From Mesostigma viride (lineage: Eukaryota; Streptophyta; Mesostigmatophyceae; Mesostigmatales; Mesostigmataceae): a stretch of DNA of 64,000 bases. Both the position numbers and the translations under genes were made by a program. The stretch lies in assembly GCA_009746045.1 (NCBI GenBank), contig RPFO01000072.1, positions 2,709,971 through 2,773,970 on the forward strand, read 5' to 3'. The notes beneath the pieces were generated by a model that worked only from the letters and a program-made list of their open reading frames with translations, was not told where the DNA came from and searched no databases. Shown here piece by piece: positions 946-42,900 of this stretch (the stretch's first letter is position 1; the number at the start of each line of letters is the position of its first letter).

Positions 946-954
946 ACGAGCCAC

Positions 955-1093: not shown

Positions 1094-1094
1094 T

Positions 1095-3144: not shown

Positions 3145-3377
3145 GATTTCTGGCCTGCGCTGGTTGTCTCCTTCGAAATTGCGTTCGAGTTTCGGGAAAA
3201 TATATCAGCGTGTGCGTCTTAGAAAGACGAAGCGATTGTGATATTCACAGCCTAATTTGGTGCCCAAACGTGAAAGTTATGAGCTCCGCCGTCAGCCATG
3301 GCTACCTCATGGCTCTCTGCATTCTAGAGGCTGGATTTGCAAGATATCAATGAGACAACCAGCGCAGGCTAGAAATC
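3145..3377. mobile_element. 233-bp MITE-like element with 26-bp terminal inverted repeats
   Basis: The 26 bp at 3145-3170 (starting GATTTC, containing CCTGCGCTGGTTGTCTC) are the reverse complement of 3352-3377 with one mismatch. The interior, 3179-3310, is an inverted copy of the leader at 955-1093. There is no ORF of note. I found no convincing target-site duplication, so the element class is open. It could be a MITE or a fold-back derivative that captured the leader. Confidence 0.55.
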
Positions 3378-3996
3378 TAGACAATTTGATGAATGGTGTA
3401 CAAAATCGCCATCATGCATATTAGGATTGACTTGTGAAATCTCTTATGCCCATGAATTATTGGAAAATGGCAGCAAGTCAACTGGATTGCTGTTCCTGCT
3501 ACGTGGTAAGAGGTCTGGATTGTGAAAATGTTCTGAGCTTACACCACTTGGGGTGAGTGCTTGCTGCAGAAGTCCGGGCTTCCAAAACCAGAACAATGTT
3601 TGCCTAACAAGACTAAAAAACGGAGAGTGTCTAATGCCTGAGGGCATCCATGTCCGCGATTGAAAGCCTCACGCCTGCTGTGGGTCAGAGAGCACGATTA
3701 GTGATATCGGTTGTGTCAATGTGATAAAGGCCTTCTACGCCGCTGCTAACTAACAACTAACTACCCACGTGAGACATGGGTGAACCCTTCACTGAAGCTG
3801 CTGATTGTTGGCTCCATTCAGCTGTTCTATACCAGTCGCGCTGAATTCCACCTCAACCTAACCACGGCAAGTACCACTGCCATTTCAAATCACTTCAGCC
3901 CAAAATCTGGATCCAGCCGCCACAAAAAAAGCACCGCCCCTGGAGCCTGAAAAAACATACGCGAATCATGTACACTATGCCGTTAACCCACTTGTC
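3378..3996. other. Intergenic sequence, no recognised gene
   Basis: This lies between the left retroelement island and the 3' end of the protease gene. Only short unsupported open stretches are present (for example 3444-3647 minus). Base composition is less GC-rich than the flanking exons. The 2886-3144 stretch to its left is likewise featureless. Confidence 0.6.
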
Positions 3997-4001
3997 TTAC
4001 A
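3997..4001 (-). terminator. Poly(A) signal TGTAA of the protease gene
   Basis: TTACA on the plus strand gives TGTAA on the minus strand, about 80 nt past the protease stop codon. UGUAA is the usual volvocine polyadenylation signal. It is the first such pentamer I see downstream of the stop. Confidence 0.55.
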
Positions 4002-4079
4002 ACACCATCTCATCCTTAATCCTCATCCGCCTTCTACCCCATCGTTAACCCCGTGTAAACCCGATGCATCAGGGGTCCC

Positions 4080-9900: not shown

Positions 9901-12900
9901 GCGGCGTCAGGCGGAGCGGGGACGGGGGAACTATGAGGCGGGCAGGTAGAGAGAGACATGAGGGAAAGCCGTGCGGGGAAACGATGCGGAGTACAGGAAG
10001 AAGGGACAAAAGGAAGAGGGGGCGAGAAAGCAGGGAAGAGAGAGGAGGAGAAACAAGACAGACTGCGCTAGCACAGATGCGGGTAAGGAAAAGAAGCGAC
10101 AATGAAAGGGCAGGAGTGCACAGATGGTGAGCCGGTTAGCTAATTGAAACGGTCCAGGCTCTGTCTTTCCAGCACTCGGCTCATTAACCCATGCTTCCGT
10201 TTTATCACGGCATGCACCGGTAACCCTAGCCACCATGGTTCACTTGTAGACACAATTTTCACCCCTACAACGACCCATCGGCCCACCTGCCTGCCCACCC
10301 TCCAATCGACGCCCTGTGCGTCGCCCAACCCGGCGCATTTGATGAGCACGGGATGCAATTGCATACCCAAAAAGAGTGCCCGAAATACATGCCCCTGGAC
10401 ATGCCCCTCCCACATTGCATCCTCCCCCCCCCACCACCACCAAGTCCCCTCCGCCTCCCCCATCATGGCAGGCGAACACATCTCGTCGAGCCCCCCTTCC
10501 CCCACCGAACCCCCCAGGTGACCAGCATTTGCCCCCCCCTTTCTATTTATGCAGATTGTACATGACCGATGTATCATGCACTGCGGGCTCGACGGGCTTG
10601 TGCACCACGCGATCGTTCCGGGCATGCCCACCTCTAGCCTTGCACGGCAACCACCCTTGGCCGTGTACTTCACCCAAAGACATCTACTGCAAACATGGCC
10701 CTTTCACCCACCGCGGGAGTGACGAGCTTGTGCACCACGTTGTCCCGCTCGTGGAAGGTTGCCATCACCGCGCTGATGTCCGCCTTGAAGTTGCCCGCGC
10801 TGTCCATCGGGATTGTGCCAAAGCGGTCGCGCGTCACCCGCGGTTCGCCTGCATGGAAGGGGGGGAGGGGGAGGGGAGGATAGCATGTAGAACAGTATAG
10901 CATAAAAACATGAGGTGTTATACAGGGTTGGAAATCGTAGGTAGAAAGGGAAACACACAAGGGATGGTGGTTGAGTCGTTGCGTGGCACGCGCAGTTGGC
11001 CTGCATGGGAGGATGCCGCAGAGGCAGAAGTGTAAGAGGCCAGAGGCCAGGGGATAGAGTAAAGGGGGGGTATTGCAGCCGTAGTAGCACAAGGAAGGAA
11101 GGGGTCAATAACTGCTTCGATACACCTTACCATTTCCAGATAATTCCCTCAACATGCAGTTGCACGAACTCACTTCCCCGCGACCAACCAGATCGAACAT
11201 TTTCTCCTTCTACATGGCGACTAGCCACAACCCCCCTGGCCGCTGCCCTAGGTGCAAAGTATCCACATCCAGGGTTTGTATATGTCAAGTTCATGTGTTC
11301 ATGTGTTCATGTGTTCATGTGCTCATGTGTTCATGTGTTCATGTGTTCATGTGCTCATGTGTTTATGTGTTCATGTGTTCATGTGTTCATGTGTTCATGT
11401 GTTCATGTGCTCATGTGTTCATGTGTTCATGTGTTCATGTGCTCATGTGCTCATGTGCTCATGTGTTCATGTGTTCATGTGGTCATGTGGTCATGTGGTC
11501 ATGGGGTCATGTGTTCATGTGTTCATGTGGTCATGTGTTCATGTGTTCATGTGTTCATGTGGTCATGTGTTCATGTGGTCATGTGCTCATGTGTTCATGT
11601 GGTCCTGTGGTCATGTGGTCATGGGGTCATGTGGTCATGTGGTCCTGTGGTCATGTGCTCATGTGGTCATGTGGTCATGTGTTCATGTGCTCATGTGTTC
11701 ATGTGGTCATGTGTTCATGTGTTCATGTGTTCATGTGCTCATGTGTTCATGTGTTCATGTGTTCATGTGTTCATGTGTTCATGTGCTCATGTGCTCATGT
11801 GTTCATGTGTTCATGTGGTCATGTGCTCATGTGTTCATGTGTTCATGTGGTCATGTGCTCATGTGTTCATGTGTTCATGTGGTCATGTGTTTATGCTCAT
11901 GTGTTCATGTGGTCCTGTGCTCATGTGTTCATGTGTTCATGTGTTCATGTGTTCATGTGTTCATGTGTTCATGTGCTCATGTGTTCATGTGGTCATGTGT
12001 TCATGTGCTCATGTGTTCATGTGTTCATGTGCTCATGTGTTCATGTGTTCATGTGTTCATGTGTTCATGTGTTCATGTGTTCATGTGTTCATGTGTTCAT
12101 GTGCTCATGTGTTCATGTGCTCATGTGGTCATGTGGTCATGTGGTCATGTGGTCATGTGGTCATGTGTTCATGTGTTCATGTGCTCATGTGCTCATGTGT
12201 TCATGTGCTCATGTGCTCATGTGCTCATGTGTTCATGTGCTCATGTGCTCATGTGTTCATGTGCTCATGTGCTCATGTGTTCATGTGGTCATGTGGTCAT
12301 GTGGTCATGTGGTCATGTGGTCATGTGGTCATGTGGTCATGTGGTCATGTGGTCATGTGCTCATGTGTTCATGTGTTCATGTGCTCATGTGTTCATGTGT
12401 TCATGTGCTCATGTGTTCATGTGCTCATGTGCTCATGTGTTCATGTGGTCATGTGGTCATGTGGTCATGTGGTCATGTGGTCATGTGGTCATGTGGTCAT
12501 GTGGTCATGTGGTCATGTGGTCATGTGTTCATGTGGTCATGTGGTCATGTGTTCATGTGGTCATGTGTTCATGTGTTCATGTGTTCATGTGTTCATGTGT
12601 TCATGTGTTCATGTGCTCATGTGTTCATGTGCTCATGTGGTCATGTGTTCATGTGGTCATGTGGTCATGTGGTCATGTGGTCATGTGGTCATGTGGTCAT
12701 GTGGTCATGTGGTCATGTGTTCATGTGTTCATGTGCTCATGTGCTCATGTGTTCATGTGCTCATGTGCTCATGTGTTCATGTGGTCATGTGGTCATGTGG
12801 TCATGTGGTCATGTGGTCATGTGGTCATGTGGTCATGTGGTCATGTGGTCATGTGGTCATGTGTTCATGTGGTCATGTGGTCATGTGTTCATGTGGTCAT

Positions 12901-15900
12901 GTGTTCATGTGTTCATGTGTTCATGTGTTCATGTGTTCATGTGTTCATGTGTTCATGTGCTCATGTGTTCATGTGCTCATGTGGTCATGTGGTCATGTGG
13001 TCATGTGGTCATGTGGTCATGTGTTCATGTGGTCATGTGCTCATGTGTTCATGTGTTCATGTGGTCATGTGTTCATGTGTTCATGTGGTCATGTGCTCAT
13101 GTGTTCATGTGCTCATGTGCTCATGTGGTCATGTGGTCATGTGGTCATGTGTTCATGTGGTCATGTGCTCATGTGTTCATGTGTTCATGTGTTCATGTGC
13201 TCATGTGTTCATGTGTTCATGTGCTCATGTGTTCATGTGCTCATGTGCTCATGTGTTTATGCTCATGTGGTCATGTGCTCATGTGTTTATGCTCATGTGG
13301 TCATGTGCTCATGTGCTCATGTGGTCCTGTGCTCATGTGCTCATGTGTTCATGTGGTCATGTGTTCATGTGCTCATGTGTTCATGTGTTCATGTGCTCAT
13401 GTGTTCATGTGCTCATGTGCTCATGTGTTCATGTGTTCATGTGTTCATGTGTTCATGTGTTCATGTGCTCATGTGCTCATGTGCTCATGTGGTCATGTGG
13501 TCATGTGCTCATGTGGTCATGTGGTCATGTGGTCATGTGGTCATGTGGTCATGTGGTCATGTGGTCATGTGGTCATGTGTTCATGTGCTCATGTGCTCAT
13601 GTGCTCATGTGCTCATGTGTTCATGTGTTCATGTGGTCATGTGGTCATGGGGTCATGGGGGCATGGGGTCATGAGGTCATGGGGTCATGGGGTCATGGGG
13701 TCATGGGGTCAAGGGGTCATGGGGTCATGGGGTCATGGGGTCATGGGGTCATGTGGTCATGTGGTCATGTGGTCATGTGGTCATGTGTTCATGTGCTCAT
13801 GTGCTCATGTGCTCATGTGCTCATGTGTTCATGTGTTCATGTGGTCATGTGGTCATGTGGTCATGTGTTCATGTGGTCATGTGGTCATGTGTTCATGTGT
13901 TCATGTGGTCATGTGTTCATGTGGTCATGTGGTCATGTGTTCATGTGGTCATGTGTTCATGTGTTCATGTGTTCATGTGCTCATGTGGTCATGTGGTCAT
14001 GTGGTCATGTGTTCATGTGGTCATGTGCTCATGTGTTCATGTGTTCATGTGTTCATGTGTTCATGTGCTCATGTGTTCATGTGCTCATGTGGTCATGTGG
14101 TCATGTGGTCATGTGGTCATGTGGTCATGTGTTCATGTGTTCATGTGCTCATGTGCTCATGTGTTCACGTGTTCATGTGTTCATGTGTTCATGTGCTCAT
14201 GTGGTCATGTGGTCATGTGTTCATGTGTTCATGTGTTCATGTGTTCATGTGTTCATGTGGTCATGTGTTCATGTGTTCATGTGGTCATGTGTTCATGTGG
14301 TCATGTGTTCATGTGCTCATGTGTTTATGCTCATGTGGTCATGTGCTCATGTGCTCATGTGTTCATGTGCTCATGTGCTCATGTGTTCATGTGGTCATGT
14401 GCTCATGTGTTCATGTGTTCATGTGGTCATGTGCTCATGTGGTCATGTGTTCATGTGTTCATGTGCTCATGTGCTCATGTGTTCATGTGCTCATGTGCTC
14501 ATGTGGTCATGTGCTCATGTGCTCATGTGCTCATGTGGTCATGTGTTCATGTGTTCATGTGCTCATGTGCTCATGTGCTCATGTGTTCATGTGTTCATGT
14601 GCTCATGTGGTCATGTGGTCATGTGTTCATGTGCTCATGTGTTCATGTGGTCATGTGTTCATGTGCTCATGTGTTCATGTGCTCATGTGGTCCTGTGGTC
14701 CTGTGTTCATGTGGTCATGTGGTCATGTGGTCATGTGGTCATGTGTTCATGTGGTCATGTGTTCATGTGTTCATGTGGTCATGTGGTCATGTGGTCATGG
14801 GGTCATGGGGTCATGTGTTCATGTGTTCATGTGGTCATGTGTTCATGTGGTCATGTGCTCATGTGTTCATGTGGTCCTGTGGTCATGTGGTCATGGGGTC
14901 ATGTGGTCATGTGGTCCTGTGGTCATGTGCTCATGTGGTCATGTGGTCATGTGTTCATGTGCTCATGTGTTCATGTGGTCATGTGTTCATGTGCTCATGT
15001 GTTCATGTGCTCATGTGGTCCTGTGGTCCTGTGTTCATGTGGTCATGTGGTCATGTGGTCATGTGGTCATGTGTTCATGTGGTCATGTGTTCATGTGTTC
15101 ATGTGTTCATGTGTTCATGTGCTCATGTGGTCATGTGTTCATGTGTTCATGTGCTCATGTGTTCATGTGCTCATGTGCTCATGTGTTCATGTGTTCATGT
15201 GCTCATGTGCTCATGTGCTCATGTGTTCATGTGGTCATGTGCTCATGTGTTCATGTGGTCATGTGCTCATGTGTTCATGTGTTCATGTGTTCATGTGTTC
15301 ATGTGGTCATGTGCTCATGTGTTCATGTGGTCCTGTGGTCATGTGGTCATGGGGTCATGTGGTCATGTGGTCCTGTGGTCATGTGTTCATGTGCTCATGT
15401 GTTCATGTGGTCATGTGTTCATGTGGTCATGTGGTCATGTGGTCATGTGGTCATGTGCTCATGTGGTCATGTGCTCATGTGTTCATGTGGTCCTGTGGTC
15501 ATGTGGTCATGGGGTCATGTGGTCATGTGGTCCTGTGGTCATGTGGTCATGTGGTCATGTGGTCATGTGGTCATGTGCTCATGTGTTCATGTGCGCATGT
15601 GTTCATGTGGTCATGTGTTCATGTGTTCATGTGCTCATGTGTTCATGTGGTCATGTGTTCATGTGCTCATGTGTTCATGTGGTCATGTGGTCATGTGCTC
15701 ATGTGCTCATGTGTTCATGTGGTCATGTGGTCATGTGCTCATGTGCTCATGTGCTCATGTGTTCATGTGTTCATGTGGTCATGTGCTCATGTGCTCATGT
15801 GCTCATGTGTTCATGTGTTCATGTGTTCATGTGGTCATGTGGTCATGTGGTCATGTGGTCATGGGGTCATGGGGGCATGGGGTCATGAGGTCATGGGGTC

Positions 15901-18900
15901 ATGGGGTCATGGGGTCATGGGGTCATGGGGTCATGGGGTCATGGGGTCATGGGGTCATGGGGTCATGTGGTCATGTGGTCATGTGGTCATGTGGTCATGT
16001 GTTCATGTGTTCATGTGTTCATGTGTTCATGTGTTCATGTGCTCATGTGTTCATGTGCTCATGTGGTCCTGTGGTCCTGTGTTCATGTGGTCATGTGGTC
16101 ATGTGGTCATGTGGTCATGTGGTCATGTGTTCATGTGCTCATGTGCTCATGTGCTCATGTGCTCATGTGTTCATGTGTTCATGTGGTCATGTGGTCATGT
16201 GGTCATGTGTTCATGTGGTCATGTGGTCATGTGTTCATGTGTTCATGTGGTCATGTGTTCATGTGCTCATGTGGTCATGTGTTCATGTGGTCATGTGCTC
16301 ATGTGGTCATGTGGTCATGTGGTCATGTGGTCATGTGGTCATGTGGTCCTGTGGTCATGTGGTCATGTGGTCATGTGGTCATGTGGTCATGTGGTCATGT
16401 GGTCATGTGGTCATGTGGTCATGTGTTCATGTGTTCATGTGTTCATGTGTTCATGTGGTCATGTGGTCATGTGGTCATGTGGTCATGTGGTCATGTGGTC
16501 ATGTGCTCATGTGTTCATGTGTTCATGTGTTCATGTGGTCATGTGTTCATGTGCTCATGTGCTCATGTGCTCATGTGCTCATGTGCTCATGTGCTCATGT
16601 GCTCATGTGCTCATGTGCTCATGTGGTCATGTGCTCATGTGCTCATGTGGTCATGTGGTCATGTGGTCATGTGGTCATGTGGTCATGTGGTCCTGTGGTC
16701 ATGTGGTCATGTGGTCATGTGGTCATGTGGTCATGTGGTCATGTGTTCATGTGGTCATGTGTTCATGTGGTCATGTGGTCATGTGCTCATGTGCTCATGT
16801 GGTCATGTGTTCATGTGGTCATGTGTTCATGTGCTCATGTGCTCATGTGTTCATGTGCTCATGTGTTCATGTGTTCATGTGTTCATGTGTTCATGTGCTC
16901 ATGTGTTCATGTGTTCATGTGCTCATGTGCTCATGTGTTCATGTGCTCATGTGTTCATGTGCTCATGTGCTCATGTGCTCATGTGCTCATGTGGTCATGT
17001 GGTCATGTGCTCATGTGGTCATGTGGTCATGTGGTCATGTGGTCATGTGGTCATGTGGTCCTGTGGTCATGTGCTCATGTGCTCATGTGCTCATGTGGTC
17101 ATGTGGTCATGTGCTCATGTGGTCATGTGGTCATGTGGTCATGTGGTCATGTGGTCATGTGGTCATGTGGTCCTGTGGTCATGTGGTCATGTGGTCATGT
17201 GGTCATGTGGTCATGTGGTCATGTGGTCATGTGTTCATGTGGTCATGTGTTCATGTGTTCATGTGGTCATGTGGTCATGTGCTCATGTGGTCATGTGTTC
17301 ATGTGGTCATGTGGTCATGTGGTCATGTGGTCATGGGGTCATGGGGTCATGTGGTCATGTGGTCATGTGTTCATGTGCTCATGTGCTCATGTGGTCCTGT
17401 GGTCATGTGGTCATGTGGTCATGTGGTCATGGGGTCATGTGGTCATGGGGTCATGTGGTCATGTGGTCATGTGGTCATGTGGTCATGTGTTCATGTGCTC
17501 ATGTGCTCATGTGCTCATGTGCTCATGTGTTCATGTGTTCATGTGTTCATGTGGTCATGTGTTCATGTGTTCATGTGTTCATGTGGTCATGTGCTCATGT
17601 GCTCATGTGTTCATGTGTTCATGTGGTCATGTGGTCATGTGGTCATGTGCTCATGTGTTCATGTGCTCATGTGCTCATGTGTTCATGTGCTCATGTGCTC
17701 ATGTGCTCATGTGCTCATGTGCTCATGTGTTCATGTGCTCATGTGCTCATGTGTTCATGTGCTCATGTGCTCATGTGCTCATGTGCTCATGTGCTCATGT
17801 GCTCATGTGTTCATGTGCTCATGTGCTCATGTGCTCATGTGCTCATGTGCTCATGTGGTCATGTGCTCATGTGCTCATGTGGTCATGTGCTCATGTGCTC
17901 ATGTGCTCATGTGGTCATGTGGTCATGTGCTCATGTGGTCATGTGGTCATGTGGTCATGTGGTCATGTGGTCATGTGGTCCTGTGGTCATGTGCTCATGT
18001 GCTCATGTGCTCATGTGCTCATGTGTTCATGTGCTCATGTGCTCATGTGCTCATGTGCTCATGTGGTCATGTGTTCATGTGCTCATGTGTTCATGTGGTC
18101 ATGTGGTCATGTGCTCATGTGGTCATGTGGTCATGTGGTCATGTGGTCATGTGGTCATGTGGTCCTGTGGTCATGTGCTCATGTGGTCATGTGGTCATGT
18201 GGTCATGTGGTCATGTGGTCATGTGGTCATGTGCTCATGTGTTCATGTGGTCATGTGTTCATGTGCTCATGTGTTCATGTGGTCATGTGGTCATGTGCTC
18301 ATGTGGTCATGTGGTCATGTGGTCATGTGGTCATGTGGTCATGTGGTCATGTGGTCATGTGGTCATGTGGTCATGTGGTCCTGTGGTCATGTGTTCATGT
18401 GTTCATGTGGTCATGTGGTCATGTGGTCATGTGGTCATGTGGTCATGTGTTCATGTGGTCATGTGCTCATGTGGTCATGTGGTCATGTGGTCATGTGGTC
18501 ATGTGGTCATGTGGTCATGTGGTCATGTGGTCATGTGGTCATGTGTTCATGTGGTCATGTGCTCATGTGGTCCTGTGCTCATGTGGTCATGTGGTCATGT
18601 GGTCATGTGGTCATGTGGTCATGTGGTCATGTGTTCATGTGGTCATGTGGTCATGTGGTCATGTGTTCATGTGGTCATGTGTTCATGTGGTCATGTGGTC
18701 ATGTGGTCATGTGGTCATGTGGTCCTGTGGTCATGTGTTCATGTGTTCATGTGGTCATGTGGTCATGTGGTCATGTGGTCATGTGGTCATGTGTTCATGT
18801 GGTCATGTGCTCATGTGGTCCTGTGCTCATGTGGTCATGTGGTCCTGTGGTCATGTGGTCATGTGGTCATGTGGTCATGTGTTCATGTGGTCATGTGGTC

Positions 18901-21900
18901 ATGTGGTCATGTGTTCATGTGGTCATGTGTTCATGTGGTCATGTGGTCATGTGGTCATGTGCTCATGTGTTCATGTGTTCATGTGCTCATGTGGTCATGT
19001 GGTCATGTGCTCATGTGCTCATGTGTTCATGTGGTCATGTGGTCATGTGGTCATGTGGTCATGTGGTCATGTGGTCATGTGGTCATGTGCTCATGTGTTC
19101 ATGTGGTCATGTGCTCATGTGTTCATGTGTTCATGTGCTCATGTGGTCATGTGGTCATGTGCTCATGTGGTCATGTGCTCATGTGGTCATGTGTTCATGT
19201 GTTCATGTGGTCATGTGGTCATGTGGTCATGTGTTCATGTGTTCATGTGTTCATGTGTTCATGTGTTCATGTGGTCATGTGCTCATGTGTTCATGTGTTC
19301 ATGTGCTCATGTGGTCATGTGGTCATGTGCTCATGTGCTCATGTGTTCATGTGGTCATGTGGTCATGTGGTCATGTGGTCATGTGGTCATGTGGTCATGT
19401 GCTCATGTGCTCATGTGTTCATGTGGTCATGTGCTCATGTGCTCATGTGTTCATGTGGTCATGTGGTCATGTGGTCATGTGGTCATGTGGTCATGTGGTC
19501 ATGTGCTCATGTGGTCCTGTGCTCATGTGGTCATGTGGTCATGTGGTCATGTGCTCATGTGGTCATGTGGTCATGTGTTCATGTGCTCATGTGTTCATGT
19601 GTTCATGTGTTCATGTGTTCATGTGTTCATGTGGTCATGTGCTCATGTGCTCATGTGGTCATGTGCTCATGTGCTCATGTGCTCATGTGCTCATGTGTTT
19701 ATGTGTTCATGTGCTCATGTGCTCATGTGTTCATGTGGTCATGTGCTCATGTGCTCATGTGGTCATGTGGTCATGTGGTCATGTGCTCATGTGCTCATGT
19801 GTTCATGTGGTCATGTGTTTATGCTCATGTGTTCATGTGGTCATGTGCTCATGTGTTCATGTGTTCATGTGTTCATGTGTTCATGTGTTCATGTGTTCAT
19901 GTGCTCATGTGCTCATGTGTTCATGTGCTCATGTGTTCATGTGTTCATGTGTTCATGTGCTCATGTGTTCATGTGGTCATGTGCTCATGTGTTCATGTGG
20001 TCATGTGCTCATGTGTTCATGTGTTCATGTGGTCATGTGCTCATGTGTTCATGTGTTCATGTGCTCATGTGCTCATGTGCTCATGTGTTCATGTGTTCAT
20101 GTGTTCATGTGTTCATGTGTTCATGTGTTCATGTGTTCATGTGTTCATGTGCTCATGTGGTCATGTGGTCATGTGGTCATGTGGTCATGTGGTCATGTGT
20201 TCATGTGGTCATGTGCTCATGTGTTCATGTGTTCATGTGGTCATGTGGTCATGTGGTCATGTGGTCATGGGGTCATGGGGTCATGTGTTCATGTGTTCAT
20301 GTGGTCATGTGTTCATGTGGTCATGTGCTCATGTGTTCATGTGGTCCTGTGGTCATGTGGTCATGGGGTCATGTGGTCATGTGGTCCTGTGGTCATGTGC
20401 TCATGTGGTCATGTGGTCATGTGTTCATGTGCTCATGTGTTCATGTGGTCATGTGTTCATGTGCTCATGTGTTCATGTGCTCATGTGGTCCTGTGGTCCT
20501 GTGTTCATGTGGTCATGTGGTCATGTGGTCATGTGGTCATGTGTTCATGTGGTCATGTGTTCATGTGTTCATGTGTTCATGTGGTCATGTGGTCATGTGG
20601 TCATGTGGTCATGTGCTCATGTGGTCATGTGCTCATGTGTTCATGTGGTCCTGTGGTCATGTGGTCATGGGGTCATGTGGTCATGTGGTCCTGTGGTCAT
20701 GTGGTCATGTGCTCATGTGGTCATGTGGTCATGTGCTCATGTGTTCATGTGCTCATGTGTTCATGTGGTCATGTGTTCATGTGTTCATGTGCTCATGTGT
20801 TCATGTGGTCATGTGTTCATGTGGTCATGTGGTCATGTGGTCATGTGGTCATGTGGTCATGTGTTCATGTGCTCATGTGCTCATGTGCTCATGTGCTCAT
20901 GTGTTCATGTGTTCATGTGGTCATGTGGTCATGGGGTCATGGGGGCATGGGGTCATGAGGTCATGGGGTCATGGGGTCATGGGGTCATGGGGTCAAGGGG
21001 TCATGGGGTCATGGGGTCATGGGGTCATGGGGTCATGTGGTCATGTGGTCATGTGGTCATGTGGTCATGTGTTCATGTGTTCATGTGTTCATGTGTTCAT
21101 GTGTTCATGTGCTCATGTGTTCATGTGCTCATGTGGTCCTGTGGTCCTGTGTTCATGTGGTCATGTGGTCATGTGGTCATGTGGTCATGTGGTCATGTGT
21201 TCATGTGCTCATGTGCTCATGTGCTCATGTGCTCATGTGTTCATGTGTTCATGTGGTCATGTGGTCATGTGGTCATGTGTTCATGTGGTCATGTGGTCAT
21301 GTGTTCATGTGTTCATGTGGTCATGTGTTCATGTGCTCATGTGGTCATGTGTTCATGTGGTCATGTGCTCATGTGGTCATGTGGTCATGTGGTCATGTGG
21401 TCATGTGGTCATGTGGTCATGTGGTCATGTGGTCATGTGGTCATGTGGTCATGTGGTCATGTGGTCATGTGGTCATGTGGTCATGTGGTCATGTGTTCAT
21501 GTGTTCATGTGTTCATGTGTTCATGTGGTCATGTGGTCATGTGGTCATGTGGTCATGTGGTCATGTGTTCATGTGGTCATGTGTTTATGTGTTCATGTGC
21601 TCATGTGCTCATGTGTTCATGTGCTCATGTGCTCATGTGCTCATGTGCTCATGTGCTCATGTGCTCATGTGGTCATGTGCTCATGTGCTCATGTGGTCAT
21701 GTGGTCATGTGGTCATGTGGTCATGTGGTCATGTGGTCCTGTGGTCATGTGGTCATGTGGTCATGTGGTCATGTGGTCATGTGGTCATGTGTTCATGTGG
21801 TCATGTGTTCATGTGGTCATGTGGTCATGTGCTCATGTGCTCATGTGGTCATGTGTTCATGTGGTCATGTGTTCATGTGTTCATGTGTTCATGTGCTCAT

Positions 21901-24900
21901 GTGTTCATGTGCTCATGTGCTCATGTGCTCATGTGTTCATGTGCTCATGTGTTCATGTGCTCATGTGCTCATGTGCTCATGTGCTCATGTGGTCATGTGG
22001 TCATGTGCTCATGTGGTCATGTGTTCATGTGGTCATGTGCTCATGTGTTCATGTGTTCATGTGGTCATGTGTTCATGTGCTCATGTGCTCATGTGCTCAT
22101 GTGCTCATGTGTTCATGTGGTCATGTGTTCATGTGGTCATGTGTTCATGTGCTCATGTGCTCATGTGCTCATGTGTTCATGTGCTCATGTGTTCATGTGT
22201 TCATGTGCTCATGTGTTCATGTGCTCATGTGCTCATGTGTTTATGCTCATGTGGTCATGTGCTCATGTGTTTATGCTCATGTGGTCATGTGCTCATGTGC
22301 TCATGTGGTCCTGTGCTCATGTGCTCATGTGGTCATGTGGTCATGTGGTCATGTGTTCATGTGTTCATGTGTTCATGTGTTCATGTGTTCATGTGTTCAT
22401 GTGTTCATGTGCTCATGTGTTCATGTGGTCATGTGTTCATGTGCTCATGTGTTCATGTGCTCATGTGCTCATGTGTTCATGTGTTCATGTGCTCATGTGT
22501 TCATGTGTTCATGTGTTCATGTGTTCATGTGTTCATGTGTTCATGTGTTCATGTGTTCATGTGTTCATGTGCTCATGTGTTCATGTGCTCATGTGGTCAT
22601 GTGGTCATGTGGTCATGTGGTCATGTGGTCATGTGTTCATGTGTTCATGTGCTCATGTGCTCATGTGTTCATGTGCTCATGTGCTCATGTGTTCATGTGG
22701 TCATGTGCTCATGTGTTCATGTGGTCATGTGCTCATGTGTTCATGTGTTCATGTGGTCATGTGCTCATGTGTTCATGTGCTCATGTGCTCATGTGTTTAT
22801 GCTCATGTGGTCATGTGCTCATGTGCTCATGTGGTCCTGTGCTCATGTGTTCATGTGTTCATGTGTTCATGTGTTCATGTGTTCATGTGCTCATGTGCTC
22901 ATGTGTTCATGTGTTCATGTGTTCATGTGGTCATGTGTTCATGTGGTCATGTGGTCATGTGGTCATGTGTTCATGTGGTCATGTGGTCATGTGCTCATGT
23001 GCTCATGTGTTCATGTGGTCATGTGTTTATGCTCATGTGTTCATGTGCTCATGTGCTCATGTGTTCATGTGCTCATGTGTTCATGTGTTCATGTGTTCAT
23101 GTGTTCATGTGTTCATGTGGTCATGTGGTCATGTGTTCATGTGCTCATGTGTTCATGTGGTCATGTGCTCATGTGTTCATGTGTTCATGTGGTCATGTGT
23201 TCATGTGCTCATGTGCTCATGTGCTCATGTGCTCATGTGTTCATGTGGTCATGTGTTCATGTGTTCATGTGTTCATGTGTTCATGTGTTCATGTGTTCAT
23301 GTGCTCATGTGCTCATGTGGTCATGTGTTCATGTGGTCATGTGCTCATGTGTTTATGTGTTCATGTGGTCATGTGGTCATGTGGTCATGGGGTCATGTGC
23401 TCATGTGCTCATGTGGTCCTGTGCTCATGTGTTCATGTGTTCATGTGTTCATGTGTTCATGTGTTCATGTGTTCATGTGGTCATGTGTTCATGTGTTCAT
23501 GTGTTCATGTGGTCATGTGTTCATGGGGTCATGGGGTCATGGGGTCATGTGGTCATGTGCTCATGTGGTCATGTGTTCATGTGTTCATGTGCTCATGTGC
23601 TCATGTGTTCATGTGTTCATGTGTTCATGTGCTCATGTGGTCATGTGGTCATGTGTTCATGTGCTCATGTGTTCATGTGGTCATGTGTTCATGTGCTCAT
23701 GTGTTCATGTGCTCATGTGGTCCTGTGGTCCTGTGTTCATGTGGTCATGTGGTCATGTGGTCATGTGGTCATGTGTTCATGTGGTCATGTGTTCATGTGT
23801 TCATGTGGTCATGTGGTCATGTGGTCATGGGGTCATGGGGTCATGTGTTCATGTGTTCATGTGTTCATGTGCTCATGTGGTCATGTGGTCATGTGTTCAT
23901 GTGCTCATGTGTTCATGTGGTCATGTGTTCATGTGCTCATGTGTTCATGTGCTCATGTGGTCCTGTGGTCCTGTGTTCATGTGGTCATGTGGTCATGTGG
24001 TCATGTGGTCATGTGTTCATGTGGTCATGTGTTCATGTGTTCATGTGGTCATGTGGTCATGTGGTCATGGGGTCATGGGGTCATGTGTTCATGTGTTCAT
24101 GTGGTCATGTGTTCATGTGGTCATGTGCTCATGTGTTCATGTGGTCCTGTGGTCATGTGGTCATGGGGTCATGTGGTCATGTGGTCCTGTGGTCATGTGC
24201 TCATGTGGTCATGTGGTCATGTGTTCATGTGCTCATGTGTTCATGTGGTCATGTGTTCATGTGCTCATGTGGTCATGTGTTCATGTGTTCATGTGGTCAT
24301 GTGGTCATGTGGTCATGGGGTCATGGGGTCATGTGTTCATGTGTTCATGTGGTCATGTGTTCATGTGGTCATGTGCTCATGTGTTCATGTGGTCCTGTGG
24401 TCATGTGGTCATGGGGTCATGTGGTCATGTGGTCCTGTGGTCATGTGCTCATGTGGTCATGTGGTCATGTGTTCATGTGCTCATGTGTTCATGTGGTCAT
24501 GTGTTCATGTGCTCATGTGTTCATGTGCTCATGTGGTCCTGTGGTCCTGTGTTCATGTGGTCATGTGGTCATGTGGTCATGTGGTCATGTGTTCATGTGG
24601 TCATGTGTTCATGTGTTCATGTGTTCATGTGGTCATGTGGTCATGTGGTCATGTGGTCATGTGCTCATGTGGTCATGTGCTCATGTGTTCATGTGGTCCT
24701 GTGGTCATGTGGTCATGGGGTCATGTGGTCATGTGGTCATGTGGTCCTGTGGTCATGTGGTCATGTGCTCATGTGGTCATGTGGTCATGTGCTCATGTGT
24801 TCATGTGCTCATGTGTTCATGTGGTCATGTGTTCATGTGTTCATGTGCTCATGTGTTCATGTGGTCATGTGTTCATGTGCTCATGTGTTCATGTGGTCAT

Positions 24901-30900: not shown

Positions 30901-33900
30901 GCTCATGTGTTCATGTGTTCATGTGGTCATGTGTTCATGTGCTCATGTGCTCATGTGCTCATGTGCTCATGTGTTCATGTGGTCATGTGTTCATGTGTTC
31001 ATGTGTTCATGTGTTCATGTGTTCATGTGTTCATGTGCTCATGTGCTCATGTGGTCATGTGTTCATGTGGTCATGTGCTCATGTGTTTATGTGTTCATGT
31101 GCTCATGTGTTCATGTGCTCATGTGCTCATGTGGTCCTGTGCTCATGTGTTCATGTGTTCATGTGTTCATGTGTTCATGTGTTCATGTGTTCATGTGGTC
31201 ATGTGTTCATGGGGTCATGGGGTCATGGGGTCATGTGGTCATGTGCTCATGTGGTCATGTGTTCATGTGTTCATGTGCTCATGTGCTCATGTGTTCATGT
31301 GTTCATGTGTTCATGTGCTCATGTGCTCATGTGGTCATGTGTTCATGTGCTCATGTGTTCATGTGGTCATGTGTTCATGTGCTCATGTGCTCATGTGCTC
31401 ATGTGTTTATGCTCATGTGGTCATGTGCTCATGTGTTTATGTGTTCATGTGCTCATGTGTTCATGTGCTCATGTGTTCATGTGCTCATGTGGTCATGTGG
31501 TCATGGGGTCATGTGCTCATGTGCTCATGTGGTCCTGTGCTCATGTGTTCATGTGTTCATGTGTTCATGTGTTCATGTGTTCATGTGTTCATGTGGTCAT
31601 GTGTTCATGTGTTCATGTGTTCATGTGGTCATGTGTTCATGGGGTCATGGGGTCATGGGGTCATGTGGTCATGTGCTCATGTGGTCATGTGTTCATGTGT
31701 TCATGTGCTCATGTGCTCATGTGTTCATGTGTTCATGTGTTCATGTGCTCATGTGGTCATGTGGTCATGTGTTCATGTGCTCATGTGTTCATGTGGTCAT
31801 GTGTTCATGTGCTCATGTGTTCATGTGCTCATGTGGTCCTGTGGTCCTGTGTTCATGTGGTCATGTGGTCATGTGGTCATGTGGTCATGTGTTCATGTGG
31901 TCATGTGTTCATGTGTTCATGTGGTCATGTGGTCATGTGGTCATGGGGTCATGGGGTCATGTGTTCATGTGTTCATGTGTTCATGTGCTCATGTGGTCAT
32001 GTGGTCATGTGTTCATGTGCTCATGTGTTCATGTGGTCATGTGTTCATGTGCTCATGTGTTCATGTGCTCATGTGGTCCTGTGGTCCTGTGTTCATGTGG
32101 TCATGTGGTCATGTGGTCATGTGGTCATGTGTTCATGTGGTCATGTGTTCATGTGTTCATGTGGTCATGTGGTCATGTGGTCATGGGGTCATGGGGTCAT
32201 GTGTTCATGTGTTCATGTGGTCATGTGTTCATGTGGTCATGTGCTCATGTGTTCATGTGGTCCTGTGGTCATGTGGTCATGGGGTCATGTGGTCATGTGG
32301 TCCTGTGGTCATGTGCTCATGTGGTCATGTGGTCATGTGTTCATGTGCTCATGTGTTCATGTGGTCATGTGTTCATGTGCTCATGTGGTCATGTGTTCAT
32401 GTGTTCATGTGGTCATGTGGTCATGTGGTCATGGGGTCATGGGGTCATGTGTTCATGTGTTCATGTGGTCATGTGTTCATGTGGTCATGTGCTCATGTGT
32501 TCATGTGGTCCTGTGGTCATGTGGTCATGGGGTCATGTGGTCATGTGGTCCTGTGGTCATGTGCTCATGTGGTCATGTGGTCATGTGTTCATGTGCTCAT
32601 GTGTTCATGTGGTCATGTGTTCATGTGCTCATGTGTTCATGTGCTCATGTGGTCCTGTGGTCCTGTGTTCATGTGGTCATGTGGTCATGTGGTCATGTGG
32701 TCATGTGTTCATGTGGTCATGTGTTCATGTGTTCATGTGTTCATGTGGTCATGTGGTCATGTGGTCATGTGGTCATGTGCTCATGTGGTCATGTGCTCAT
32801 GTGTTCATGTGGTCCTGTGGTCATGTGGTCATGGGGTCATGTGGTCATGTGGTCATGTGGTCCTGTGGTCATGTGGTCATGTGCTCATGTGGTCATGTGG
32901 TCATGTGCTCATGTGTTCATGTGCTCATGTGTTCATGTGGTCATGTGTTCATGTGTTCATGTGCTCATGTGTTCATGTGGTCATGTGTTCATGTGCTCAT
33001 GTGTTCATGTGGTCATGTGGTCATGTGCTCATGTGCTCATGTGTTCATGTGGTCATGTGGTCATGTGCTCATGTGCTCATGTGCTCATGTGTTCATGTGT
33101 TCATGTGGTCATGTGCTCATGTGCTCATGTGCTCATGTGTTCATGTGTTCATGTGTTCATGTGGTCATGTGGTCATGTGGTCATGTGGTCATGGGGTCAT
33201 GGGGCATGGGGTCATGAGGTCATGGGGTCATGGGGTCATGGGGTCATGGGGTCATGGGTCATGGGGTCATGGGGTCATGGGGTCATGGGTCATGTGGTCA
33301 TGTGGTCATGTGGTCATGTGGTCATGTGTTCATGTGTTCATGTGTTCATGTGTTCATGTGTTCATGTGCTCATGTGTTCATGTGCTCATGTGGTCCTGTG
33401 GTCCTGTGTTCATGTGGTCATGTGGTCATGTGGTCATGTGGTCATGTGGTCATGTGTTCATGTGCTCATGTGCTCATGTGCTCATGTGCTCATGTGTTCA
33501 TGTGTTCATGTGGTCATGTGGTCATGTGGTCATGTGTTCATGTGGTCATGTGGTCATGTGTTCATGTGTTCATGTGGTCATGTGTTCATGTGCTCATGTG
33601 GTCATGTGTTCATGTGGTCATGTGCTCATGTGGTCATGTGGTCATGTGGTCATGTGGTCATGTGGTCATGTGGTCCTGTGGTCATGTGGTCATGTGGTCA
33701 TGTGGTCATGTGGTCATGTGGTCATGTGGTCATGTGGTCATGTGGTCATGTGTTCATGTGTTCATGTGTTCATGTGTTCATGTGGTCATGTGGTCATGTG
33801 GTCATGTGGTCATGTGGTCATGTGGTCATGTGGTCATGTGCTCATGTGTTTATGCTCATGTGGTCATGTGCTCATGTGCTCATGTGGTCCTGTGCTCATG

Positions 33901-36900
33901 TGCTCATGTGTTCATGTGGTCATGTGTTCATGTGCTCATGTGTTCATGTGTTCATGTGCTCATGTGTTCATGTGTTCATGTGTTCATGTGTTCATGTGTT
34001 CATGTGTTCATGTGTTCATGTGTTCATGTGCTCATGTGGTCATGTGGTCATGTGGTCATGTGGTCATGTGGTCATGTGTTCATGTGGTCATGTGCTCATG
34101 TGTTCATGTGTTCATGTGTTCATGTGGTCATGTGCTCATGTGTTCATGTGTTCATGTGTTCACGTGTTCATGTGTTCATGTGGTCATGTGTTCATGTGCT
34201 CATGTGCTCATGTGTTCATGTGTTCATGTGTTCATGTGTTCATGTGTTCATGTGGTCATGTGTTCATGTGGTCATGTGGTCATGTGGTCATGTGGTCATG
34301 TGGTCATGTGTTCATGTGGTCATGTGCTCATGTGTTCATGTGTTCATGTGTTCATGTGGTCATGTGTTCATGTGTTCATGTGTTTATGTGTTCATGTGTT
34401 CATGTGTTCATGTGCTCATGTGTTCATGTGGTCATGTGCTCATGTGTTCATGTGTTCATGTGTTCATGTGTTCATGTGTTCATGTGGTCATGTGTTCATG
34501 GGGTCATGTGCTCATGTGTTCATGTGGTCATGTGCTCATGTGTTCATGTGTTCATGTGTTCATGTGTTCATGTGTTCATGTGTTCATGTGGTCATGTGGT
34601 CATGTGTTCATGTGTTCATGTGTTCATGTGTTCATGTGTTCATGTGGTCATGTGTTCATGGGGTCATGGGGTCATGGGGTCATGTGGTCATGTGCTCATG
34701 TGGTCATGTGTTCATGTGTTCATGTGCTCATGTGCTCATGTGTTCATGTGCTCATGTGCTCATGTGGTCATGTGCTCATGTGCTCATGTGCTCATGTGGT
34801 CATGTGTTCATGTGCTCATGTGGTCATGTGGTCATGTGTTCATGTGCTCATGTGTTCATGTGGTCATGTGTTCATGTGCTCATGTGTTCATGTGCTCATG
34901 TGGTCCTGTGGTCCTGTGTTCATGTGGTCATGTGGTCATGTGGTCATGTGGTCATGTGTTCATGTGGTCATGTGTTCATGTGTTCATGTGGTCATGTGGT
35001 CATGTGGTCATGGGGTCATGGGGTCATGTGTTCATGTGTTCATGTGGTCATGTGTTCATGTGGTCATGTGCTCATGTGTTCATGTGGTCCTGTGGTCATG
35101 TGGTCATGGGGTCATGTGGTCATGTGGTCCTGTGGTCATGTGCTCATGTGGTCATGTGGTCATGTGTTCATGTGCTCATGTGTTCATGTGGTCATGTGTT
35201 CATGTGCTCATGTGTTCATGTGCTCATGTGGTCCTGTGGTCCTGTGTTCATGTGGTCATGTGGTCATGTGGTCATGTGGTCATGTGTTCATGTGGTCATG
35301 TGTTCATGTGTTCATGTGTTCATGTGTTCATGTGCTCATGTGGTCATGTGTTCATGTGTTCATGTGGTCATGTGTTCATGTGGTCATGTGCTCATGTGTT
35401 CATGTGGTCCTGTGGTCATGTGGTCATGGGGTCATGTGGTCATGTGGTCCTGTGGTCATGTGTTCATGTGCTCATGTGTTCATGTGGTCATGTGTTCATG
35501 TGGTCATGTGGTCATGTGGTCATGTGGTCATGTGCTCATGTGGTCATGTGCTCATGTGTTCATGTGGTCCTGTGGTCATGTGGTCATGGGGTCATGTGGT
35601 CATGTGGTCTGTGGTCATGTGGTCATGTGGTCATGTGGTCATGTGGTCATGTGCTCATGTGTTCATGTGCTCATGTGTTCATGTGGTCATGTGTTCATGT
35701 GTTCATGTGCTCATGTGTTCATGTGGTCATGTGTTCATGTGCTCATGTGTTCATGTGGTCATGTGGTCATGTGCTCATGTGCTCATGTGTTCATGTGGTC
35801 ATGTGGTCATGTGCTCATGTGCTCATGTGCTCATGTGTTCATGTGTTCATGTGGTCATGTGCTCATGTGCTCATGTGCTCATGTGTTCATGTGTTCATGT
35901 GTTCATGTGGTCATGTGGTCATGTGGTCATGTGGTCATGGGGTCATGGGGTCATGGGGTCATGGGGTCATGGGGTCATGGGGTCATGGGGTCATGGGGTC
36001 AAGGGGTCATGGGGTCATGGGGTCATGGGGTCATGGGGTCATGTGGTCATGTGGTCATGTGGTCATGTGGTCATGTGTTCATGTGTTCATGTGTTCATGT
36101 GGTCATGTGGTCATGTGGTCATGTGCTCATGTGTTCATGTGTTCATGTGTTCATGTGCTCATGTGTTCATGTGCTCATGTGGTCCTGTGGTCCTGTGTTC
36201 ATGTGGTCATGTGGTCATGTGGTCATGTGGTCATGTGGTCATGTGTTCATGTGCTCATGTGCTCATGTGCTCATGTGCTCATGTGTTCATGTGTTCATGT
36301 GGTCATGTGGTCATGTGGTCATGTGTTCATGTGGTCATGTGGTCATGTGTTCATGTGTTCATGTGGTCATGTGTTCATGTGCTCATGTGGTCATGTGTTC
36401 ATGTGGTCATGTGCTCATGTGGTCATGTGGTCATGTGGTCATGTGGTCATGTGGTCATGTGGTCATGTGGTCATGTGGTCATGTGGTCATGTGGTCATGT
36501 GGTCATGTGGTCATGTGTTCATGTGTTCATGTGTTCATGTGTTCATGTGGTCATGTGGTCATGTGGTCATGTGGTCATGTGGTCATGTGTTCATGTGGTC
36601 ATGTGTTATGTGTTCATGTGCTCATGTGCTCATGTGTTCATGTGCTCATGTGCTCATGTGCTCATGTGCTCATGTGCTCATGTGCTCATGTGGTCATGTG
36701 CTCATGTGCTCATGTGGTCATGTGGTCATGTGGTCATGTGGTCATGTGGTCATGTGGTCCTGTGGTCATGTGGTCATGTGGTCATGTGGTCATGTGGTCA
36801 TGTGGTCATGTGGTCATGTGTTCATGTGGTCATGTGTTCATGTGGTCATGTGGTCATGTGCTCATGTGCTCATGTGGTCATGTGTTCATGTGGTCATGTG

Positions 36901-39900
36901 TTCATGTGTTCATGTGTTCATGTGCTCATGTGTTCATGTGCTCATGTGCTCATGTGCTCATGTGTTCATGTGCTCATGTGTTCATGTGCTCATGTGCTCA
37001 TGTGCTCATGTGCTCATGTGGTCATGTGGTCATGTGCTCATGTGGTCATGTGGTCATGTGGTCATGTGGTCATGTGGTCATGTGGTCCTGTGGTCATGTG
37101 CTCATGTGCTCATGTGCTCATGTGGTCATGTGGTCATGTGCTCATGTGGTCATGTGGTCATGTGGTCATGTGGTCATGTGGTCATGTGGTCCTGTGGTCA
37201 TGTGGTCATGTGGTCATGTGGTCATGTGGTCATGTGGTCATGTGGTCATGTGTTCATGTGGTCATGTGGTCATGTGGTCATGTGGTCATGTGCTCATGTG
37301 CTCATGTGGTCATGTGTTCATGTGGTCATGTGGTCATGTGGTCATGTGGTCATGGGGTCATGGGGTCATGTGGTCATGTGGTCATGTGTTCATGTGCTCA
37401 TGTGCTCATGTGGTCCTGTGGTCATGTGGTCATGTGGTCATGTGGTCATGGGGTCATGTGGTCATGGGGTCATGTGGTCATGTGGTCATGTGGTCATGTG
37501 GTCATGTGTTCATGTGCTCATGTGCTCATGTGCTCATGTGCTCATGTGTTCATGTTTCATGTGTTCATGTGGTCATGTGTTCATGTGTTCATGTGTTCAT
37601 GTGGTCATGTGCTCATGTGCTCATGTGTTCATGTGTTCATGTGGTCATGTGGTCATGTGGTCATGTGCTCATGTGTTCATGTGCTCATGTGCTCATGTGT
37701 TCATGTGCTCATGTGCTCATGTGCTCATGTGCTCATGTGCTCATGTGTTCATGTGCTCATGTGCTCATGTGTTCATGTGCTCATGTGCTCATGTGCTCAT
37801 GTGCTCATGTGCTCATGTGCTAATGTGTTCATGTGCTCATGTGCTCATGTGCTCATGTGCTCATGTGCTCATGTGGTCATGTGCTCATGTGCTCATGTGG
37901 TCATGTGCTCATGTGCTCATGTGCTCATGTGGTCATGTGGTCATGTGCTCATGTGGTCATGTGGTCATGTGGTCATGTGGTCATGTGGTCATGTGGTCCT
38001 GTGGTCATGTGCTCATGTGCTCATGTGCTCATGTGCTCATGTGTTCATGTGGTCATGTGCTCATGTGCTCATGTGCTCATGTGTTCATGTGTTCATGTGT
38101 TCATGTGGTCATGTGGTCATGTGGTCATGTGGTCATGGGGTCATGGGGTCATGGGGTCATGAGGTCATGGGGTCATGGGGTCATGGGGTCATGGGGTCAA
38201 GGGGTCATGGGGTCATGGGGTCATGGGGTCATGGGGTCATGTGGTCATGTGGTCATGTGGTCATGTGGTCATGTGTTCATGTGTTCATGTGTTCATGTGG
38301 TCATGTGGTCATGTGGTCATGTGCTCATGTGTTCATGTGTTCATGTGTTCATGTGCTCATGTGTTCATGTGCTCATGTGGTCCTGTGGTCCTGTGTTCAT
38401 GTGGTCATGTGGTCATGTGGTCATGTGGTCATGTGGTCATGTGTTCATGTGCTCATGTGCTCATGTGCTCATGTGCTCATGTGTTCATGTGTTCATGTGG
38501 TCATGTGGTCATGTGGTCATGTGTTCATGTGGTCATGTGGTCATGTGTTCATGTGTTCATGTGGTCATGTGTTCATGTGCTCATGTGGTCATGTGTTCAT
38601 GTGGTCATGTGCTCATGTGGTCATGTGGTCATGTGGTCATGTGGTCATGTGGTCATGTGGTCCTGTGGTCATGTGGTCATGTGGTCATGTGGTCATGTGG
38701 TCATGTGGTCATGTGGTCATGTGGTCATGTGGTCATGTGTTCATGTGTTCATGTGTTCATGTGTTCATGTGGTCATGTGGTCATGTGGTCATGTGGTCAT
38801 GTGGTCATGTGTTCATGTGGTCATGTGTTTATGTGTTCATGTGCTCATGTGCTCATGTGTTCATGTGCTCATGTGCTCATGTGCTCATGTGCTCATGTGC
38901 TCATGTGCTCATGTGGTCATGTGCTCATGTGCTCATGTGGTCATGTGGTCATGTGGTCATGTGGTCATGTGGTCATGTGGTCCTGTGGTCATGTGGTCAT
39001 GTGGTCATGTGGTCATGTGGTCATGTGGTCATGTGGTCATGTGTTCATGTGGTCATGTGTTCATGTGGTCATGTGGTCATGTGCTCATGTGCTCATGTGG
39101 TCATGTGTTCATGTGGTCATGTGTTCATGTGTTCATGTGTTCATGTGCTCATGTGTTCATGTGCTCATGTGCTCATGTGCTCATGTGTTCATGTGCTCAT
39201 GTGTTCATGTGCTCATGTGCTCATGTGCTCATGTGCTCATGTGGTCATGTGGTCATGTGCTCATGTGGTCATGTGGTCATGTGGTCATGTGGTCATGTGG
39301 TCATGTGGTCCTGTGGTCATGTGCTCATGTGCTCATGTGCTCATGTGGTCATGTGGTCATGTGCTCATGTGGTCATGTGGTCATGTGGTCATGTGGTCAT
39401 GTGGTCATGTGGTCCTGTGGTCATGTGGTCATGTGGTCATGTGGTCATGTGGTCATGTGGTCATGTGGTCATGTGTTCATGTGGTCATGTGTTCATGTGG
39501 TCATGTGGTCATGTGCTCATGTGCTCATGTGGTCATGTGTTCATGTGGTCATGTGGTCATGTGGTCATGTGGTCATGGGGTCATGGGGTCATGTGGTCAT
39601 GTGGTCATGTGTTCATGTGCTCATGTGCTCATGTGGTCCTGTGGTCATGTGGTCATGTGGTCATGTGGTCATGGGGTCATGTGGTCATGGGGTCATGTGG
39701 TCATGTGGTCATGTGGTCATGTGGTCATGTGTTCATGTGCTCATGTGCTCATGTGCTCATGTGCTCATGTGTTCATGTGTTCATGTGTTCATGTGGTCAT
39801 GTGTTCATGTGTTCATGTGTTCATGTGGTCATGTGCTCATGTGCTCATGTGTTCATGTGTTCATGTGGTCATGTGGTCATGTGGTCATGTGCTCATGTGT

Positions 39901-42900
39901 TCATGTGCTCATGTGCTCATGTGTTCATGTGCTCATGTGCTCATGTGCTCATGTGCTCATGTGCTCATGTGTTCATGTGCTCATGTGCTCATGTGTTCAT
40001 GTGCTCATGTGCTCATGTGCTCATGTGCTCATGTGCTCATGTGCTCATGTGTTCATGTGCTCATGTGCTCATGTGCTCATGTGCTCATGTGCTCATGTGG
40101 TCATGTGCTCATGTGCTCATGTGGTCATGTGCTCATGTGCTCATGTGCTCATGTGGTCATGTGGTCATGTGCTCATGTGGTCATGTGGTCATGTGGTCAT
40201 GTGGTCATGTGGTCATGTGGTCCTGTGGTCATGTGCTCATGTGCTCATGTGCTCATGTGCTCATGTGTTCATGTGCTCATGTGCTCATGTGCTCATGTGC
40301 TCATGTGGTCATGTGTTCATGTGCTCATGTGTTCATGTGGTCATGTGGTCATGTGCTCATGTGGTCATGTGGTCATGTGGTCATGTGGTCATGTGGTCAT
40401 GTGGTCCTGTGGTCATGTGCTCATGTGGTCATGTGGTCATGTGGTCATGTGGTCATGTGGTCATGTGGTCATGTGCTCATGTGTTCATGTGGTCATGTGT
40501 TCATGTGCTCATGTGTTCATGTGGTCATGTGGTCATGTGCTCATGTGGTCATGTGGTCATGTGGTCATGTGGTCATGTGGTCATGTGGTCATGTGGTCAT
40601 GTGGTCATGTGGTCATGTGGTCATGTGGTCCTGTGGTCATGTGTTCATGTGTTCATGTGGTCATGTGGTCATGTGGTCATGTGGTCATGTGGTCATGTGT
40701 TCATGTGGTCATGTGCTCATGTGGTCATGTGGTCATGTGGTCATGTGGTCATGTGGTCATGTGGTCATGTGGTCATGTGGTCATGTGGTCATGTGTTCAT
40801 GTGGTCATGTGCTCATGTGGTCCTGTGCTCATGTGGTCATGTGGTCATGTGGTCATGTGGTCATGTGGTCATGTGGTCATGTGGTCATGTGGTCATGTGG
40901 TCATGTGGTCATGTGGTCATGTGTTCATGTGGTCATGTGTTCATGTGGTCATGTGGTCATGTGGTCATGTGGTCATGTGGTCCTGTGGTCATGTGTTCAT
41001 GTGTTCATGTGGTCATGTGGTCATGTGGTCATGTGGTCATGTGGTCATGTGTTCATGTGGTCATGTGCTCATGTGGTCCTGTGCTCATGTGGTCATGTGG
41101 TCCTGTGGTCATGTGGTCATGTGGTCATGTGGTCATGTGTTCATGTGGTCATGTGGTCATGTGGTCATGTGTTCATGTGGTCATGTGTTCATGTGGTCAT
41201 GTGGTCATGTGGTCATGTGCTCATGTGTTCATGTGTTCATGTGCTCATGTGGTCATGTGGTCATGTGCTCATGTGCTCATGTGTTCATGTGGTCATGTGG
41301 TCATGTGGTCATGTGGTCATGTGGTCATGTGGTCATGTGGTCATGTGCTCATGTGTTCATGTGGTCATGTGCTCATGTGTTCATGTGTTCATGTGCTCAT
41401 GTGGTCATGTGGTCATGTGCTCATGTGGTCATGTGCTCATGTGGTCATGTGTTCATGTGTTCATGTGGTCATGTGGTCATGTGGTCATGTGTTCATGTGT
41501 TCATGTGTTCATGTGTTCATGTGTTCATGTGGTCATGTGCTCATGTGTTCATGTGTTCATGTGCTCATGTGGTCATGTGGTCATGTGCTCATGTGCTCAT
41601 GTGTTCATGTGGTCATGTGGTCATGTGGTCATGTGGTCATGTGGTCATGTGGTCATGTGCTCATGTGCTCATGTGTTCATGTGGTCATGTGCTCATGTGC
41701 TCATGTGTTCATGTGGTCATGTGGTCATGTGGTCATGTGGTCATGTGGTCATGTGGTCATGTGCTCATGTGGTCCTGTGCTCATGTGGTCATGTGGTCAT
41801 GTGGTCATGTGCTCATGTGGTCATGTGGTCATGTGTTCATGTGCTCATGTGTTCATGTGTTCATGTGTTCATGTGTTCATGTGTTCATGTGGTCATGTGC
41901 TCATGTGCTCATGTGGTCATGTGCTCATGTGCTCATGTGCTCATGTGCTCATGTGTTTATGTGTTCATGTGCTCATGTGCTCATGTGTTCATGTGGTCAT
42001 GTGCTCATGTGCTCATGTGGTCATGTGCTCATGTGTTCATGTGGTCATGTGGTCATGTGTTCATGTGGTCATGTGTTCATGTGGTCATGTGTTCATGTGT
42101 TCATGTGTTCATGTGCTCATGTGCTCATGTGTTCATGTGTTCATGTGGTCATGTGTTCATGTGTTCATGTGCTCATGTGGTCATGTGGTCATGTGGTCAT
42201 GTGGTCATGTGGTCATGTGGTCATGTGGTCATGTGGTCATGTGGTCATGTGGTCATGTGCTCATGTGCTCATGTGGTCATGTGGTCATGTGGTCATGTGG
42301 TCATGTGCTCATGTGTTCATGTGGTCATGTGGTCATGTGGTCATGTGCTCATGTGTTCATGTGGTCATGTGCTCATGTGTTCATGTGTTCATGTGCTCAT
42401 GTGTTCATGTGGTCATGTGTTCATGTGCTCATGTGTTCATGTGTTCATGTGTTCATGTGCTCATGTGCTCATGTGCTCATGTGCTCATGTGCTCATGTGC
42501 TCATGTGCTCATGTGCTCATGTGCTCATGTGTTCATGTGTTCATGTGCTCGTGTGCTCATGTGTTCATGTGCTCATGTGTTTATGCTCATGTGGTCATGT
42601 GGTCATGTGCTCATGTGTTCATGTGCTCATGTGCTCATGTGCTCATGTGCTCATGTGCTCATGTGTTCATGTGCTCATGTGCTCATGTGTTCATGTGTTC
42701 ATGTGTTCATGTGTTCATGTGTTCATGTGCTCATGTGCTCATGTGCTCATGTGCTCATGTGCTCATGTGCTCATGTGCTCATGTGCTCATGTGCTCATGT
42801 GTACATGCATGTTTTATATTCCAAATACACACTTTCAGATACACACGCACCCACCCACCCACACCCACATGAACGCTCGCTAATACACCACCGCGCTCAC

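Follow-up and report, generated by a model that had tools for sequence, protein, structure and literature searches.

In the early-diverging streptophyte alga Mesostigma viride, a 31,511-bp array of a single head-to-tail octamer, TCATGTGN, fills intron 7 of a predicted M8 peptidase gene, and the array is itself a mosaic of internal block copies (Table 1). Its origin was probably passive: a seed lying within the intron would have expanded, and would be spliced out, without any function of its own. The locus is a clear natural example of a gene, apparently intact, that carries an intron of 32 kb of pure repeat. It can serve to test how much simple repeat a spliced intron will bear and by what route such arrays grow; its own record is one of slippage by whole units and of copied blocks, with point mutations few in number.

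The M8 gene and its exon 7-8 join

Joining the 13 exons predicted in the window (the whole 64,000-nt stretch of DNA that was analysed) across their GT-AG introns yields a single frame of 1,552 residues, in which the sole stop is terminal. Intron 7 makes up 71% of the gene as measured from start to stop codon, with the remaining eleven introns spanning 187-1,742 nt. It has the features of a spliceosomal intron, namely GT-AG ends, a long polypyrimidine tract at its 3' end and a preserved frame from exon 7 (42901-43297) into exon 8 (10712-10848). Exons 6-9 matched PF01457, the Pfam profile of the M8 (leishmanolysin) peptidases, over positions 158-351 of its 529 (E = 9.9e-38; 130.5 bits, cut-off 21), and the two parts of the M8 motif, HEMLH in exon 7 and SHWE in exon 9, occur within one frame; the histidines of HEXXH and [ST]HWE are presumably the zinc ligands of the peptidase. 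When the 13-exon translation was aligned with 12 of the 35 retrieved proteins, [ST]HWE was found in 12 of the 13 rows, the remaining one (P0001) stopping short of the motif. These results bear out what the first-pass annotation had claimed for the junction (42901 to 10848, coordinates that are exact in the 13-exon model), for its ordinary splice sites and kept phase, and for a ~31.5-kb octamer array of ~3,900 units, which it had placed at 11290..42802: TRF delimited the array at 11291-42801 and counted 3,944.9 copies of period 8 (92% matches; score 44955).

Table 1. Positions of the gene, intron, exons, octamer array and copied blocks in the window
Feature	Position	Strand	Description
Predicted M8 gene	4080..48933	-	start-to-stop span 44,854 bp; 13 coding exons; 1,552 aa
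Intron 7	10849..42900	-	32,052 nt; GTGAGC...polypyrimidine...CATGCAG
Exon 7	42901..43297	-	carries HEMLH (HEXXH) of the M8 domain
Exon 8	10712..10848	-	M8 domain carried on in frame
Octamer array	11291..42801	.	N = G, T or C; TRF and unit counts
4.3-kb block	23369..27646	.	copy at 31485-35609; 0 substitutions, 8 gap events
2.5-kb block	17275..19769	.	copy at 39517-42027; 0 substitutions, 3 gap events

A public M. viride protein model, P0013, is identical to the 13-exon translation across the exon 7-8 join. Residues 1-1,317 of the translation are all present in it and in order, the one difference being four additional residues where exons 1 and 2 meet, which an acceptor shifted by 12 nt would explain; beyond residue 1,317 the two diverge because P0013 reads into intron 12. 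The join falls inside the peptidase domain, and, of the M. viride paralogues, the four that extend to this point align there without a gap.

P0013 is probably an annotation of the same assembly rather than an independent witness, because the identifiers of its series (Mv19974, 25554) go beyond the model count of the CCAC 1140 genome (9,300; PMC7027972) and fit the 24,431 genes of NIES-296 (PMC6947507). The NIES-296 annotation drew on ab initio and homology methods together with isoform sequencing brought in through PASA (PMC6947507), which makes transcript support for the M8 gene likely. P0013 itself seems to use an exon 2 acceptor 12 nt upstream (48595-48606) together with the intron 12 read-in (4788-5285), and these alternatives suggest transcript-derived isoforms. 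In the paralogue P0001 (Mesvir1/6265), the model ends a few residues past the point matching the exon 7-8 join, and its later exons may have been missed behind a long intron.

Other tandem repeats occur in the M8 gene, including a 57-bp minisatellite of ~16 copies in intron 5 (44945-45852) and two further short arrays in introns 5 and 6, at 44339-44518 (21 bp) and 43475-43551 (20 bp). Elsewhere in the window, an ORF at 59666-60322, which gave no match in a Pfam search, looks by eye like a LINE reverse-transcriptase tail.

Composition and growth of the array

The array consists of one short unit repeated head-to-tail over kilobases, as in a short-unit satellite or expanded microsatellite, and with thousands of copies in register it cannot be a product of chance. 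The unit given above is that of the + strand; the transcribed - strand reads NCACATGA. Exact units number 3,604, with an eighth base of G in 1491, T in 1201, C in 912 and A in none, and the chief variants are TCATGGGG, TCCTGTGG and the 6-bp TTATGC.

The missing A can be explained by a low count of mutations. Single-linkage clustering of the contexts gave a rough figure of ~23-26 mutation events, from which 0.65-0.99 A would be expected at the eighth base, with a probability of 0.37-0.52 (also rough) of finding none. The absence is therefore compatible with founder variation, and selection against A, with fewer than one A expected from the rough event count, is not needed. It is because this base is never A that the + strand carries very long open frames, of up to 8,903 codons, which might be taken to encode a giant Cys/His-rich repeat protein. 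We give that reading virtually no chance: the same stretch can be read without a stop in more than one frame, as would hold for any stop-free octamer, and zero A is what chance alone would produce with a probability of ~0.4-0.5 (rough). Coding on the + strand was rejected on the ground of these multiple open frames.

Copies within the array are long and numerous. The longest exact ones extend to 1,742 bp, and exact repeats of at least 160 bp cover 86% of the array. A scan in 60-unit windows, with identity set at >=90%, recovered 28 block pairs that together contain 79% of the units and, once merged, have unit identities of 0.83-0.95, as compared with 0.28 for random units. Four of the 28 pairs were aligned in full (~9.3 kb); they had been picked for the longest exact repeats, so that their substitution count is biased low, and they showed 16 gap events, with 9,297 positions identical and 3 mismatched. 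The block copies differ mainly by whole units: the gaps resolve into 10 whole-unit changes (8, 24, 40 or 104), two of which are merged gaps (6+2 and 7+1), and 4 single bases. A control pair taken from unrelated places in the array was far more divergent (94.0% identity, 75 mismatches, 13 gap events), which marks the four block pairs as true copies. Across the whole array there are 202 non-canonical stretches, of 23 types only. Together with the scarcity of substitutions relative to whole-unit gaps, this points to unit slippage and block copying that outrun substitution, and growth of the array appears to have proceeded mainly by these two processes. Blocks of ~90-104 bp made of TCATGGGG, noticed both as breaks in the open frames and among the non-canonical stretches, recur in the array near 13.7, 15.9, 21.0, 25.1, 28.0, 33.2 and 38.2 kb, where they sit within its larger copied blocks.

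In the history that we favor, the algal M8 peptidase gene is intact and one of its introns, of the usual spliceosomal kind, would have held a short TCATGTGN seed. This seed would have grown to ~31.5 kb by replication slippage in unit steps and by the copying of blocks of 1-4 kb, either through unequal exchange or through a break-induced process. The array would then be transcribed as NCACAUGA repeats, would leave the transcript with the spliced-out intron, and would itself serve no function.

What is least certain in the finding is the exact length of the array, which is taken from a single long-read assembly whose PacBio reads have an N50 of 11.2 kb against a repeat of 31.5 kb, and which was built with Canu and gap-filled with PBJelly (PMC6947507). 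The array could accordingly be real and its length or inner order a product of repeat stitching; the long copies free of substitutions would fit such a product, and the four single-base gaps between copies resemble residual errors. We consider this unlikely. There is no N among the 64,000 nt of the window, every 1,800-bp stretch of the assembled array is unique, so that its order could be worked out from reads of the usual length, whole-unit differences separate the block copies in several places, and the published assembly also used optical maps (PMC6947507).

RNA and DNA properties of the array and its possible roles

The two strands of the array differ sharply in content, with GT occurring 3 times on the transcribed strand and 6,733 times on the opposite one. 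A search of both strands of the array for AATAAA and for one form of pyrimidine-rich acceptor found neither. In one 401-nt piece, the predicted fold of the sense strand reached -81 kcal/mol and that of the antisense strand -163.5 kcal/mol, and both folded better than all 100 of their shuffles; the sense RNA thus has structure, though less of it than the antisense. With almost no GT and no AATAAA on the sense strand, and with a long pyrimidine tract closing the intron, this one array may be tolerated in the pre-mRNA. If the M8 gene is transcribed through, it follows that the pre-mRNA would carry ~32 kb of repeat; effects on splicing, transcription time or chromatin, which the first-pass annotation had raised, are speculation. 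A rule that sense-strand arrays must be GT-poor is weakened by the 57-bp array of intron 5, whose sense strand holds 142 GT and 15 AGGT, where the AGGT may represent a series of intron-internal 5' splice sites.

A working giant intron, in which transcription time or a satellite RNP on NCACAUGA RNA would set gene output in analogy to the Drosophila Y-loop genes, is in our judgment quite improbable. Elongation through 32 kb takes just minutes at usual polymerase rates, and the 15 sense AGGT of intron 5 make GT-poverty no general rule of the gene, even if the transcribed strand of the octamer array is the GT-poor and, in the one piece folded, the less strongly folding strand. Satellite-filled introns of a coding gene are, for their part, known to work (PMC6508621).

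The unit also contains a putative binding site. The array carries 3,606 CATGTG (CACATG, a PBE-type E-box), and CACATG is among the predominant motifs bound by PIF3 (PMC11552376), so that the array might act as a DNA decoy for bHLH factors. The chance of this seems to us exceedingly slim, as CATGTG is automatic in any TCATGTGN array, and low substitution with recent copying can explain the constancy of the unit without selection. That constancy, which extends to seven of the eight bases, could nonetheless be read as constraint and counts against passive expansion. In more general terms, it is very improbable that the array is kept for a role, whether in a nuclear body of NCACAUGA RNA or through ~3,600 CACATG boxes titrating bHLH factors; if it were, the single-celled alga would be linking the expression of its secreted protease to light or to the time of the cell cycle.

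As DNA, the array holds 5 CpG, 246 CHG and many CHH contexts; the 5 CpG leave little room for CG methylation, and CHH methylation is possible. In Arabidopsis, IBM2 and EDM2 act in reading through heterochromatic introns. The M. viride array resembles such introns in placing repeat DNA within a gene that is transcribed there and predicted to be so here (PMC4417168). It differs from them in that the Arabidopsis introns consist of transposable elements with heterochromatic marks, whereas the array is a simple repeat with the methylation contexts just given.

Known counterparts and genome setting

Arrays of this size are known from the introns of disease alleles, and far larger ones from Drosophila; what is unusual here is the lineage. 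The Drosophila Y fertility genes kl-3 and kl-5 have giant introns filled with satellite (PMC6508621), and as in those genes a short-unit satellite fills the intron of a coding gene and is predicted to lengthen its transcript. The Drosophila introns reach megabases, are expressed in spermatogenesis and need RNA-binding proteins (PMC6508621), whereas the M. viride case amounts to ~32 kb in one intron, well short of the megabase size of the Y-loop type. In human myotonic dystrophy DM2, CCTG in intron 1 of CNBP ranges from 75 to 11,000 units (PMC10849350), likewise a pure short repeat within an intron that can reach tens of kilobases. The DM2 arrays are pathogenic variant alleles, whereas the Mesostigma array is the sole allele in one assembly, with a variable eighth base and block copies.

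The gene, intron, splice phase and array reported by the first-pass annotation all stand, by the gene model and the protein match, but its description of the gene setting as compact does not. The published M. viride genome is large and rich in repeats, at 442 Mb with 66% repetitive sequence and a mean intron of 1.14 kb (NIES-296 assembly: 441,847,188 bases in 2,363 scaffolds; PMC6947507). We sampled eight stretches of ~10 kb, of which two flank the window, two more lie on the same scaffold and one consists of N for half its length. The tandem-repeat share of these stretches is 1.5-33%, reaching at least 10% in five and staying below 6% in three, and the largest array among them (~1.6 kb) is far below 31.5 kb. 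A search of 439,911,974 bases in 2,243 contigs for three consecutive units found 3,222 of the 3,373 genome-wide forward matches in the window, and 580 reverse matches outside it. With nearly all forward matches in one window and by far the largest array sampled, the locus is exceptional, a point that speaks against passive expansion. Among the matches listed in a search of the open-access literature, no title or abstract opening dealt with this octamer array.

Two further arrays came to light in these searches. On the scaffold of the window, shortly beyond its edge, lies a 389-copy GATG array (L009:8145-9701). The control pattern, which was the unit read backwards, gave 954 reverse-strand matches, indicating that a AGTACACN octamer array is also present in the genome.
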